Positions 3,879 to 9,649 of a stretch of DNA of 64,000 nt are shown piece after piece. The stretch lies in NCBI RefSeq assembly GCF_021117405.1, contig NZ_CP088251.1, positions 806,001-870,000 on the forward strand, given 5' to 3'. The notes beneath the pieces were generated by a model. That model searched no databases, had not been told where the DNA came from, and was given only the letters and a program-made list of their open reading frames with translations. The DNA comes from Frateuria edaphi (GTDB taxonomy: Bacteria > Pseudomonadota > Gammaproteobacteria > Xanthomonadales > Rhodanobacteraceae). Positions within the stretch are counted from its first letter, which is position 1. The number at the start of each line of letters is the position of its first letter. A program made the position numbers and the translations under genes.

Positions 3879-4009
3879 GGAAGGAAGGGGGAGAAGCAGC
3901 GCGCATCGGGATGCAGCAGGGACCGTTGGCAATAAGCACGTGGTGCCGTGCCTGACACGGCCAATTCACGCATGGGGTCCGAAGTGACCGCATCAGGTTC
4001 GCTCGCCCC
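3879..4009 (+). promoter_or_regulatory. Conserved two-hairpin leader element, copy A (M4 protease)
   Basis: The leader of the M4 protease gene. In order it holds a purine-rich block (from 3879), CGGGATGCAGC, hairpin P1 (GCCGTG at 3945-3950 with CACGGC at 3956-3961), the block CGCATGGGGTCCG at 3969-3981, then hairpin P2. P2 pairs GGGG 3974-3977 with CCCC 4006-4009, CGA 3980-3982 with TCG 4003-4005 and GACC 3986-3989 with GGTT 3996-3999, leaving a loop GCATCA. The start codon lies 27 bases after P2. Copies B and C (6682-6802 and 9529-9649) share the blocks while the stems differ. The 3592-4036 intergenic region otherwise holds only the sufT terminator and an unassigned AT-richer stretch near 3720-3780. 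Confidence 0.6.
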
Positions 4010-4036
4010 GAATTTCTCTTTTATGGAGTACCTGAA

Positions 4037-6181
4037 ATGCCAAGTAATGTCCGTCTGAAGCTCCTGGTTGCCGCCATCGGCATGGCGTGTGCCTCCACCG
4101 CGATGGCAGCAAACAGCGAGCACGTGAACGTGCAAAACCTCGGTGCGGTGCCGGCCGGCAGCCTCGCGACGCGCCTGAACCTCGGCGCGAACATGTCGTT
4201 GACCGCGCGCAGCACCGCCCACCTGCCCAACGGCAAGCAGGTCGTGCGCCAGCAGCAGATGTACCGCGGCGTGCCGGTATACGGCCGCAGCGTTGCGGTG
4301 GAACAGGACGCGCACGGGAACGTGCTGCACGCCTCCGGCAACGTGATGAAGCTGCCGGCGAACCTTGCCGCGCCGCTGTCGGTCACCCCGAAGCTGAGCG
4401 GGGCCCAGGCCATCGCCAAGCTGCAGGCCCACGCGCACACCACGCTGGCCGGCGGCGCGTCCATCTACAACAAGAAGGCCGACCTGTTCGTCTATCCGCA
4501 AGAAAATGGCTCGCCGCGCCTGGTCTACCTCACCTCCTACGTCGTCGGTGGCCAGCATCCGAGCCGTCCGACCGCGATCGTCGATGCGCACACCGGCGCG
4601 GTGATCCAGAGCTGGGATGGCCTGACCGACGCCACGGCCAACGGTCCCGGTGGCAACCAGAAGACCGGCGAGTACTACTACGGCACCGACTACCCGGCGC
4701 TGCAGGTCACCCAGTCCGGCAGCACCTGCACCCTGCAGAACACCAACGTCATCACCTACAACCTCAACCACGGCACCAGCGGCGGCACCCTGGTCAGCTT
4801 CACCTGCCCGACCAGCAACACCGACCCGATCAACGGCGCCTACTCGCCGGTCAACGACGCCCACCACTTCGGCGGCGTGGTCCACGACATGTACGTTGCG
4901 TACAACGGAGCGCCCCCGCTCAACATGCAGCTGCGCATGAACGTGCACTACAAGAGCAACTACGAGAACGCGTTCTGGGACGGCACCGCGATGTACTTCG
5001 GCGATGGCGCCAGCACCTTCTATCCGCTGGTTTCGCTGGACGTGACCAGCCACGAGATCAGCCACGGCTATACCGAGCAGAACTCCGGCCTGCAGTACAG
5101 CGGGCAGTCGGGCGGCATGAACGAAGCCTATTCGGACATCGCCGGCGAAGCGGCCGAATTCTATGATCGCGGCCAGGCCGACTTCCTGGTCGGCGCCGAC
5201 ATCATGAAGAGCGGCACCGCGCTGCGCTTCATGTGCAACCCCCCGCAGGATGGCGGCTCGATCGACAACGCGGCCGACTACACCAGCGGCCTGGACGTGC
5301 ATTATTCGTCCGGCGTCTATAACAAGGCGTTCTGCCTGCTCGCAAAGACGTCCGGCTGGGACGTGAAGAAGGCCTTCCAGTCGTTCGCGCTGGCCAACAA
5401 GTCGTACTGGACCGCGACCTCCAACTTCAACGACGGCGCCTGCGGCGTGGAGTCGGCCGCGACCGCCCTCGGCTATAGCTCGACCGATGTGGCGGCGGCC
5501 TTTACCCAGGTGGGTGTCACCTGCCCGACCGGTGGCGGTGGCGGCGGTGGCAGCACCGTCGAACTGCAGAACGGCGTGGCCGTGACCGGCGTGTCCGGTT
5601 CGGCTGGCCAGGATCACGACTACCTGATCAAGGTGCCCGCGGGCGCTTCCAATCTGGTGATGTCGATCTCCGGCGGCAGCGGCGATGCGGACCTGTACAC
5701 CAAGTTCGGCTCGGCGCCGACGCTCAGCAGCTACGACTGCCGTCCGTACAAGACCGGCAACAGCGAGAGCTGCTCGGTCTCCTCGCCGCAGACGGGCACC
5801 TACTACATCAAGGTGCACGGCTACTCCTCGTACTCCAGCGTGACGGTGAAGGCGTCCTACAGCACCAGCGGTGGCAGCGGCGGCGGCACTACCTCGGTCA
5901 GCCTGCCGACCGTGAGCACCGGCAACTGGTCGGCCACCTACACCGAGACGGTGCAGGCCGGTCACACGGCGAAGTTCGCCATCTCCGGCGGCACCGGTGA
6001 CGCAGACCTGTACGTGCGGGCCGGCGCCGAGCCGACCACCACCAGCTACAGCTGCCGTCCGTACCTCACCGGCAACAACGAGAGCTGCAGCTTCACCCCG
6101 TCGACGACCACCACCTATTACATCAAAGTGCGTGCGTACCAGACGTTCTCGGGCGTGACGCTGACCGAAACGCTCAACTGA
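4037..6181 (+). CDS. Secreted M4 (thermolysin/vibriolysin-like) metalloprotease with two PPC domains
   Basis: 714 residues. A signal peptide ends near AMA at residue 24. A propeptide with FTP/PepSY-type segments (about 40-190) would act as chaperone and inhibitor. The M4 zinc peptidase domain spans about 205-495, with HEISH giving ligands H339 and H343 and catalytic E340, and third ligand E363 in [10 protein letters not shown] Gly-rich linker then leads to two pre-peptidase C-terminal (PPC) domains at about 505-605 and 617-714, each with GDADLY and YYIKV signatures. PPC domains are usually removed after export. Secretion is probably by the type II system. ATG 4037 follows GGAG by 8 bases. First of three secreted protease genes with a common leader type. 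Confidence 0.93.
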
Positions 6182-6234
6182 GGTCGGTCCTGGGGTCCGC
6201 GTCTGGCAATCGACGCGGGCTTCCCGGGTCCAGT

Positions 6235-6263
6235 AAAACCCCGGCTTCGGCCGGGGTTTTTTT
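6235..6263 (+). terminator. Intrinsic terminator after the M4 protease gene
   Basis: CCCCGGC-TTCG-GCCGGGG stem with the stable TTCG tetraloop, flanked by AAAA and a run of seven T. Confidence 0.92.
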
Positions 6264-6471
6264 ATGCCCGCAGCCTGAAAACGCGGGATCGCCAGGTACC
6301 ACGCCTGCTCGCTGCTGGTACCGGCGTTTTCTGGCGTCATCGCCGTGAAGGTGGTTCGCCCAACGCGGCTTGCGCTGCCAGGGCCGATTCGGATGCGCAC
6401 CGACCCTGCATTGCCCCCAAGCGAACTCGACGGCCGGTGATACGACCGGAGCGGTGCATTTGCAAACCGCC

Positions 6472-6493
6472 TCATTTATTTGCGAATAAATGA
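6472..6493. repeat. AT-rich perfect inverted repeat upstream of the first sedolisin gene
   Basis: TCATTTATT at 6472-6480 and AATAAATGA at 6485-6493 form a perfect 9-bp inverted repeat around TGCG. It lies in an AT-rich island (about 6465-6595) inside otherwise very GC-rich DNA, upstream of the leader. It could be an operator. The rest of the 6182-6825 intergenic region holds the M4 gene terminator, this island, a TTGACC at 6561-6566 and the leader element. Confidence 0.35.
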
Positions 6494-9186: not shown

Positions 9187-9242
9187 CGTCAGACGCCGGG
9201 GCACGTTCATCCGCTGCCTCGGCATTTTTCGATGGTAATGAC

Positions 9243-9271
9243 ACGCCCGGCCAAACGCCGGGCGTTTTTTT
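9243..9271 (+). terminator. Intrinsic terminator after sedolisin copy 1
   Basis: A 9-bp stem, ACGCCCGGC with GCCGGGCGT, around CAAAC, followed by a run of seven T. Confidence 0.92.
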
Positions 9272-9305
9272 GTCGAAAAAATCCGATGCCGTGGCCGCAG
9301 AGTTA

Positions 9306-9325
9306 ATGCGCAAGAAATTACGCAT
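9306..9325. promoter_or_regulatory. Inverted repeat ATGCG-N10-CGCAT upstream of sedolisin copy 2
   Basis: ATGCG at 9306-9310 and CGCAT at 9321-9325 are separated by 10 bases. A related TAATGCGCA/AATGCG stretch lies at about 6510-6529 before sedolisin copy 1, and both regions also carry CCTATTGAC further down (TTGAC at 6561 and 9390). These may be remnants of a shared promoter or operator that was duplicated with the gene. The remaining 9187-9677 intergenic DNA holds the copy 1 terminator and leader element C. Confidence 0.35.
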
Positions 9326-9528
9326 ATGCACGCGGTATTTACATCGATAAATGCCATGGATTACCTAATCACATTTTGAAAAATTCCTATTGACGGTCCC
9401 TTTCCCGGAGCCCATGGTCGGTCCGCTCCGTCGCAGGGAAGTCGACGAGGCGTCCTGTCGTGGCCCCGCCACCGAAGGTGATGACGGCGCCAGCTGCCGG
9501 ACCGATACGCAACGCGCCTCCGCAGGGA

Positions 9529-9649
9529 ATTCCAGGGGAGAAGGCGCCCGGCCCGACGGCACGCGGGATCGCTGGCCATCAAGAACCGGAACGGTCGCAC
9601 CAGCGACTCACACGCATGAGGTCCGCACGGGCCGCATCGGGGCCGTGCG
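9529..9649 (+). promoter_or_regulatory. Conserved two-hairpin leader element, copy C (second sedolisin)
   Basis: A purine-rich block (CCAGGGGAGAAGG) is followed by CGGGATCGCTG at 9564-9574, hairpin P1 (GTCGC 9594-9598 with GCGAC 9603-9607) and the block CGCATGAGGTCCG at 9613-9625. Hairpin P2 pairs CGCACGG 9624-9630 with CCGTGCG 9643-9649 around a loop holding CCGCATCGG. P2 here has a different stem sequence from copies A and B, yet seven perfect pairs. The start codon is 28 bases downstream. Confidence 0.6.

Follow-up and report, generated by a model that had tools for sequence, protein, structure and literature searches.

Excerpts of PMC7652899 describe CsrA/RsmE proteins as recognizing ANGGAN hexaloops and bridging from a hairpin to the Shine-Dalgarno (SD) sequence, and report an action of CsrA on the moaA riboswitch leader; in those of PMC3937308, the hrpG leader of Xanthomonas citri is stabilized by RsmA, which binds a GGA in one of its loops. 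Here we analyze a 64,000-nucleotide stretch of Frateuria edaphi (contig NZ_CP088251.1, positions 806,001 to 870,000; "the window"), in which one M4 and two S53-type peptidase genes share a structured 5′ leader RNA. A first-pass annotation, made from the sequence alone, had proposed a cis-regulatory RNA of a secreted-protease set that belongs to no Rfam class. Our comparison supports that proposal, but the annotation had missed a long-range helix and the element's 5′ half with its GGA-loop hairpins, a half that makes a leader bound by a protein (RsmA/CsrA) more likely than a metabolite riboswitch. The comparative evidence argues that the element is a genuine structured leader RNA, spread through the family, that stands before a set of secreted-protease genes and is unmatched in Rfam. 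Control by RsmA/CsrA, perhaps with a switch ahead of the ribosome binding site, appears to be its best explanation, to which we assign a probability of about 0.5.

The three leaders of the window share the same order of sequence blocks, as had been noted and as their alignment bears out, including a near-invariant 13-base word, CGCATGRGGTCCG. This word occurs without mismatch at exactly three places in the 3.77-Mb genome, all within the three leaders; with up to one mismatch it occurs at 25 places (22 more), compared with 18 for the reversed word, and the one-mismatch occurrences are therefore near chance. A word search of 233 genomes of the family Rhodanobacteraceae returned 10 places in 8 genomes (2 places for a reversed control pattern), of which eight were kept as leaders and two, L026 and L028, were dropped for want of leader context. 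The eight kept leaders formed a seed covariance model, R1. Read upstream, 72 R1 matches revealed a conserved unit that is ~95–115 nt longer on its 5′ side than had been annotated. From the 72 leaders fetched at the best-placed R1 matches, 58 were aligned without structure and used to build a full-leader model, R2, leaving out 13 near-duplicates (≥90% alike) and also L097 because its 5′ part does not align.

R2 delimits three structured 5′ leaders of 241–267 nt in the window, all on the forward strand and each including its ATG: 3773–4039 before the M4 gene (176.4 bits, E = 9.7e-55), 6588–6828 before the first S53-type gene, whose ATG stands at 6826 (130.8 bits), and 9415–9680 before the second (101.9 bits), these scores being partly by construction since all three leaders are in R2. 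The starts, near 3773, 6588 and 9415, lie 94–114 nt 5′ of the annotated ones, which displaces the earlier boundaries: what had been taken for the leaders is only the 3′ half of an element about twice as long. In the M4 leader, hairpin A (3783–3808, supported by covariation) exposes the apical loop GGGGAG (3793–3798), a candidate RsmA/CsrA site. It is followed by the 5′ strand of a long-range helix, GGTCC (3809–3813), which can pair with GGACC (3920–3924) in the GGGAT-block of the first-pass annotation, as alignment and covariation indicate. Between these strands, the region of hairpin D and stem C (3876–3893) holds the GGA motifs CATGGAAG and AGGGGGAG, and the stem of hairpin D is weak in this particular leader (3 bp). 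Further downstream lie hairpin P1 (3945–3961), a hairpin that we call alt1 (AUGgGGUC/GACCgCAU, 3972–3993), a competing fold, alt2 (3974–4009), which is the P2 hairpin of the first-pass annotation with its GGGG/CCCC stem, and the SD sequence GGAG (4025–4028). The first S53-type leader places hairpin A at 6596–6623, P1 at 6743–6758 and alt1 at 6767–6786; its loop A, ACGGCT, has no GGA, an exception common to L038 and L063. In the second S53-type leader, the core of hairpin A (9429–9447) has a loop with AGGGAA, and P1 and alt1 lie at 9594–9607 and 9616–9637.

Covariation is strong, held-out leaders included. We assessed it by pair counts and by a tree-aware count of our own, other than R-scape, which scores double changes that keep pairing on one branch against other column pairs (mean 0.13 per pair) and yields p values that are uncorrected for many tests. 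In the 58-leader alignment, a structure of 50 pairs has 86.5% of its cells paired, versus 36.6–49.3% when partners are slid by 1–3 columns, and 237 cells are doubly changed, versus 96.7 in shuffles (0 of 500 as high). Two biases apply to this first set: R1, with which it was collected, already contains P1 and alt2, and the same leaders served to draw the structure. On the tree, the first set supports P1 (p = 0.0002 for pair 223-235), the long-range helix (p = 0.0013 for 46-180), hairpin A (p = 0.0014 for 16-39), hairpin D (p = 0.003) and inner stem C (p = 0.003 and 0.005). Hairpin B is paired in 75.7% of cells and outer stem C in 72.9%, but neither contains a single pair that reaches significance on the tree of the 58 leaders. 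As a hold-out, 69 leaders outside R2 were newly aligned with one reference; having been found with R2, they are biased in choice, though not in alignment. Here hairpin A, the long-range helix, P1 and alt1 together have 88.3% of their cells paired, compared with 33.0–47.0% when slid, and the long-range helix alone has 90.0%. Compensatory events number 21 in hairpin A (10 pairs), 20 in P1 (7 pairs), 9 in alt1, 3 in the long-range helix and 2 in alt2, against 0.18 per control pair. P1, one of the two hairpins originally proposed, thus covaries in both sets. The fold energies of single sequences are unremarkable (z = −1.35 to 0.53, 5 segments), and hence the case rests on comparison rather than on stability.

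Two further candidates were rejected. A GGATC/GGTCC helix around P1 fails in that its GGTCC strand varies (GGTCT, GG-CC) and GGATC pairs instead with GATCC after hairpin A. A leader peptide attenuator is contradicted by indels that break the frame, hairpin length modulo 3 being 2, 1 and 0 in 32, 18 and 4 rows; an ATG is present in 54 of the 58 leaders, and its frame is open to the start codon in 40 of these 54.

The 3′ end of the element can adopt either of two folds that share strands. Alt1 pairs AUGnGGYC with GRCCnCAU, the two most conserved blocks of the annotated P2, whereas in alt2 GGGG has CCCC as its partner and the GRCC arm the bases that follow; alt1 lies outside R1 and R2, and alt2 is part of both. 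The first 58 leaders have alt1 paired in 97.2% of cells, a single pair being changed on both sides, and alt2 in 94.1% with three such pairs; the tree test favors alt2, which has 5 events (256-291, p = 0.0025; 269-282, p = 0.0195) versus 2 for alt1. The held-out leaders favor alt1 instead: it is formed in 87.7% of cells (just 39 of 70 for the outermost pair) and gains 9 events and three pairs at p < 0.02, while alt2, formed in 83.0%, has 2 events, no significant pair, and doubly changed cells that do not rise above all slid controls. The P2 hairpin is consequently supported in the first set and yields to its rival in the second, and CCGCATC, described as its loop, would be an arm if alt1 forms. 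On these alignments we take alt1 as the conserved hairpin, and some members of the family may use alt2 as a second state. The alt1 stem also contains a G-G apposition (alignment A5, columns 256/272), which is kept in 47 of the 58 leaders and replaced by standard pairs in 7.

Constrained folding places alt1 and alt2 within 4 kcal/mol of each other in 37 of the 58 leaders, with alt2 lower in 15, and a switch between them is possible in these models. Were the leader a riboswitch, its 3′ domain would bind a small molecule (e.g., a product of proteolysis or a second messenger) and toggle the two folds, the GGA motifs being secondary. The very high sequence conservation of the alt1 arms, the shared strands with their similar energies, and the compensatory support for both folds in the first set would suit such a mechanism; however, the behavior of alt2 in the held-out leaders, where neither a significant pair nor an excess over all slid controls is seen, does not, and the genes encode secreted enzymes rather than metabolic or transport functions and the leaders match no Rfam aptamer. 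We consider a riboswitch unlikely on balance. The 3′ arms are also conserved beyond the needs of pairing, as a target for a trans-acting small RNA that pairs with them might be, but the arms change together. In the held-out leaders the alt1 arms vary as GGUGC/GCACC, GGCGC/GCGCC, GGCU/AGCC and GGGUU/AACCC or are replaced by CUGCAGUC/GACUGCAG, and such changes, including a replacement in the L142, L143 and L145 copies, would break pairing with one shared small RNA, which makes this explanation the least credible of those considered and very improbable in itself.

The GGA motifs point to RsmA/CsrA. Loop A carries GGA in 55 of the 58 leaders, 30 of them with the hexaloop GGGGAG, and the D region forms a GGA-loop hairpin in 50 of 58, compared with 0.34 in mononucleotide shuffles, a control that covers the D region only. 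Loops of P1 contain GGA in 1 of 58. In the alignment rows, inspected by eye, GGA overlaps the SD sequence, as any good SD would produce, and the genome contains one CsrA gene. We propose that each gene would be transcribed from its own promoter into a ~250-nt structured 5′ untranslated leader. The long-range helix, between GAUCC following hairpin A and a GGAUC further on, would close the 5′ domain and enclose stem C and hairpin D, and the 3′ domain would consist of P1 and the hairpin just before the ribosome binding site. Two hairpins would thus present GGA in apical loops, in addition to the GGAG of the SD itself, and an RsmA/CsrA dimer bound to the loop motifs would, directly or via a refolded 3′ hairpin, set SD access and message stability, such that secreted proteases of unrelated families are made together. 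Both the binding of RsmA and the direction of control are what we infer from the leader sequences.

Several observations weigh against RsmA/CsrA control. By the rule used, 8 of the 58 leaders have no D hairpin, and GGA is absent from loop A in three S53 leaders, all from the genus of the window (L038, L063 and L029, the last being 6588–6828 of the window), although the second S53 leader of the window keeps it. The most frequent loop A, GGGGAG, lacks the first A of ANGGAN, which some D loops do fit. Over the whole leader, GGA is only modestly enriched (5.55 observed, 4.73 expected), as is RNGGA (3.68 and 2.45). Predicted SD access changes slightly between the folds (0.26 in alt1, 0.35 in alt2); alt1 falls more than 0.1 below alt2 in 18 of 58 leaders and is the higher in 7. 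Some other GGA leaders did not bind RsmA in the experiments excerpted from PMC3937308. Finally, the most conserved part of the element is the 3′ hairpin, which has no GGA, and something besides RsmA may therefore be recognized. If no signal were sensed at all, the leader could be a constitutive 5′ stabilizer or translation enhancer that protects the message and keeps the SD open; hairpin A does lie close to the inferred 5′ end, like protecting hairpins, and abundant secreted enzymes would be plausible users. That explanation leaves the conserved GGA loops and the strongly conserved alt1 arms unaccounted for, and M4 and S53 paralogues in the same genome do without the leader, so that we hold it to be doubtful.

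The genes behind the leader fall into three protein groups. All 141 collected copies (72 via R1 and 69 via R2, a part of all R2 matches at E ≤ 1e-5) precede a member of one of them, as defined by protein BLAST linkage over the first 330 residues: 67 S53-type, 48 M4 and 26 of a third group, with family labels taken from Pfam scans of 12 proteins. The chosen start codon lies within 60 nt of the model end in 138 of 141 copies, the exceptions being L088, L179 and L181. Judged by eye, the products have signal-peptide-like N-termini and are probably secreted. For the third group, Pfam scans of four proteins gave one without any match and three with only PKD or PPC tails, none with a catalytic match, and an NCBIfam scan of two proteins gave no match. 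Its members (L175:1025-2116, minus strand, and 25 relatives, alignment A7) have ~360 residues, often with PKD/PPC tails, and an invariant HE..E motif; L175 has no convincing relative of solved structure (best PDB E = 0.061). They are perhaps an undescribed metallopeptidase family. A search of the window's own genome for this family returned no match, in a search that had no positive control.

Within the window, Pfam confirms one M4 peptidase gene, with an FTP propeptide and two PPC stretches (4037–6181), and two S53-type genes, each with a pro-kumamolisin activation domain and a PKD domain (6826–9186 and 9678–12008), all on the forward strand and in agreement with the first-pass annotation. 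The open reading frame listed for the first S53-type gene begins at a TTG (6820), whereas the ATG at 6826 comes after the SD. Terminator-like hairpins with T runs follow the M4 gene (~6235–6262) and the first S53 gene (~9243–9272), and the three genes are therefore probably separate transcription units. Elsewhere in the genome, protease paralogues without a leader lie at C1:2357353 and 3348864 (M4) and 2451458 (S53-type). The leader thus precedes 2 of 3 pro-kumamolisin genes and 1 of 3 M4 genes, and its absence from the other paralogues indicates that membership of these protein families does not in itself account for it.

Each leader of the window is preceded by promoter-like hexamers from which transcription may start. 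The putative promoters are TTGTTG, 17 bases, TATTGT for the M4 gene (3748–3776, with a poor match at −35), TTGACC, 18 bases, TAGTTT for the first S53-type gene (6561–6590), and TTGACG, 17 bases, CATGGT for the second (9390–9418), the latter two also marked by the spacing of TTGAC. Across the 141 copies, TTGAC occurs up to 75 nt before the model start, or in its first bases, in 89 and at 25 or 26 nt in 80, compared with 5 of 141 for an equal-sized window inside the leaders. Signal peptides are shared as well: the M4 (4037–4115) and first S53-type (6826–6900) genes of the window have one signal-peptide type despite encoding unrelated enzymes, and between S53 and M4 proteins behind leaders the best identity over 22 residues averages 10.5 with a maximum of 19, versus 5.8 and 9 when shuffled. 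The third group shares signal peptides less (means of 8.0 and 9.2, versus 6.3 and 6.0), and some S53 proteins behind leaders have a different kind of N-terminus. The argument that common descent of the coding regions does not explain the shared leader therefore holds for the mature proteins but not for the N-termini, since many M4 and S53 genes share signal peptides, at up to 19 of 22 residues. Because these otherwise unrelated proteins share signal peptides along with the leader, promoter, leader and signal peptide seem to have moved as one copied module onto unrelated enzymes. The same features, TTGAC at a fixed distance and signal peptides traveling with the leader, together with the inverted repeat of hairpin A, might instead reflect a DNA element, i.e., a promoter and operator duplicated with the genes, whose hairpins are palindromes for a transcription factor. 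Stem letters, however, change with compensation while loop A stays, the opposite of an operator, and the element keeps one orientation and a narrow position: in 71 of 72 copies, 16–27 nt separate the end of its R1 part from the chosen start. We judge such an element improbable.

The leader is widespread in its family. At E ≤ 1, R1 matches 146 of the 233 family genomes, the weak matches among which we do not believe; at E ≤ 1e-5, R2 matches 116 of the 233 Rhodanobacteraceae genomes, 103 of the 192 good ones and 15 of 26 genera, with up to 7 matches per genome. The model therefore finds many sites beyond the three from which the first-pass annotation had started. Of 398 genomes drawn from the order, 78 match R2 at E ≤ 0.01, 75 of them in the family and 3 outside it (E = 0.0019–0.0071). 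In 369 genomes drawn from the class, R2 matches the window's own genome and 7 others (E = 7e-4 to 0.0094), where ~4 matches at E ≤ 0.01 are expected by chance and E-values are rough. The matches outside Rhodanobacteraceae are weak and probably due to chance. Among named sequence records, 8 of 24 pattern places coincide with a full R2 match: 4 in Dyella, 2 in Rhodanobacter, 1 in Frateuria and 1 in a metagenome-assembled genome labelled Lysobacteraceae. Dyella and Rhodanobacter belong to the Rhodanobacteraceae. The other 16 places lie outside the family (e.g., Halomonas, Limnohabitans, Akkermansia) and were set aside as chance, 15 of them being partial R2 matches of 9.7–15.6 bits and L123 none. 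Six stretches (L142, L143, L145, L156, L159 and L165) resemble the window in having protease genes in a row, each with its own leader (2–3 per stretch).

A bolder synthesis would treat promoter, ~250-nt protein-sensing RNA switch and signal peptide as a portable cassette. Copied onto secreted proteases of unrelated families, it would feed the RsmA/CsrA state, perhaps with a second signal through alt1 and alt2, into exoprotease output, and the leader would be an undescribed large RNA class of one bacterial family; we offer this combination tentatively and regard it as less probable than RsmA/CsrA control itself. A structured leader that keeps two covarying GGA-loop hairpins and is conserved in 15 genera would allow RsmA/CsrA control to be read from genome sequence. 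The shared promoter-leader-signal-peptide module seems to show clearly how a regulatory RNA can spread to genes of unrelated enzymes. The element also outlines a putative exoprotease regulon in bacteria such as Rhodanobacter and Dyella, and adds to it a family without a catalytic Pfam match.

The three window leaders have no match in Rfam release 15, whether at gathering scores or at E up to 10, and those of 20 relatives have none with E ≤ 0.5; away from the leaders Rfam gives only terminator-like and chance matches, the best weak ones in the window falling on the terminator-like hairpins between the genes. Among the best 4–20 titles and abstract beginnings of each literature search, none describes such a leader, a scope that a motif listed in the 2017 survey of 224 candidate RNAs but absent from Rfam could escape, and a word search in PMC2864571 finds neither of two genus names, nor Xanthomonad, peptidase or protease. 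The cis-regulatory families of Rfam release 15 are the same kind of object, a structured 5′ leader, but none matches the leaders of the window or of the 20 other loci.

In Pseudomonas, the secreted protease gene aprA is under Rsm control. The likeness lies in a secreted protease gene under such control, which here is a candidate only and concerns different bacteria, and we know of no shared leader fold for aprA. The moaA molybdenum cofactor (Moco) riboswitch leader, in the account excerpted from PMC7652899, is likewise structured and contains two CsrA sites, and an influence on SD exposure is proposed; unlike it, the leader described here matches no Rfam model and stands before different genes. 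Closest are the RsmA/CsrA-bound leaders of hcnA, glgC, psl, flhDC and hrpG, which, in the excerpts of PMC7652899 and PMC3937308, resemble the present leader in displaying loop GGA upstream of and at the SD, and the host has a CsrA gene. Whereas those leaders appear singly in the same excerpts, the candidate target described here is a fold of ~250 nt that is conserved over 15 genera and common to unrelated genes.

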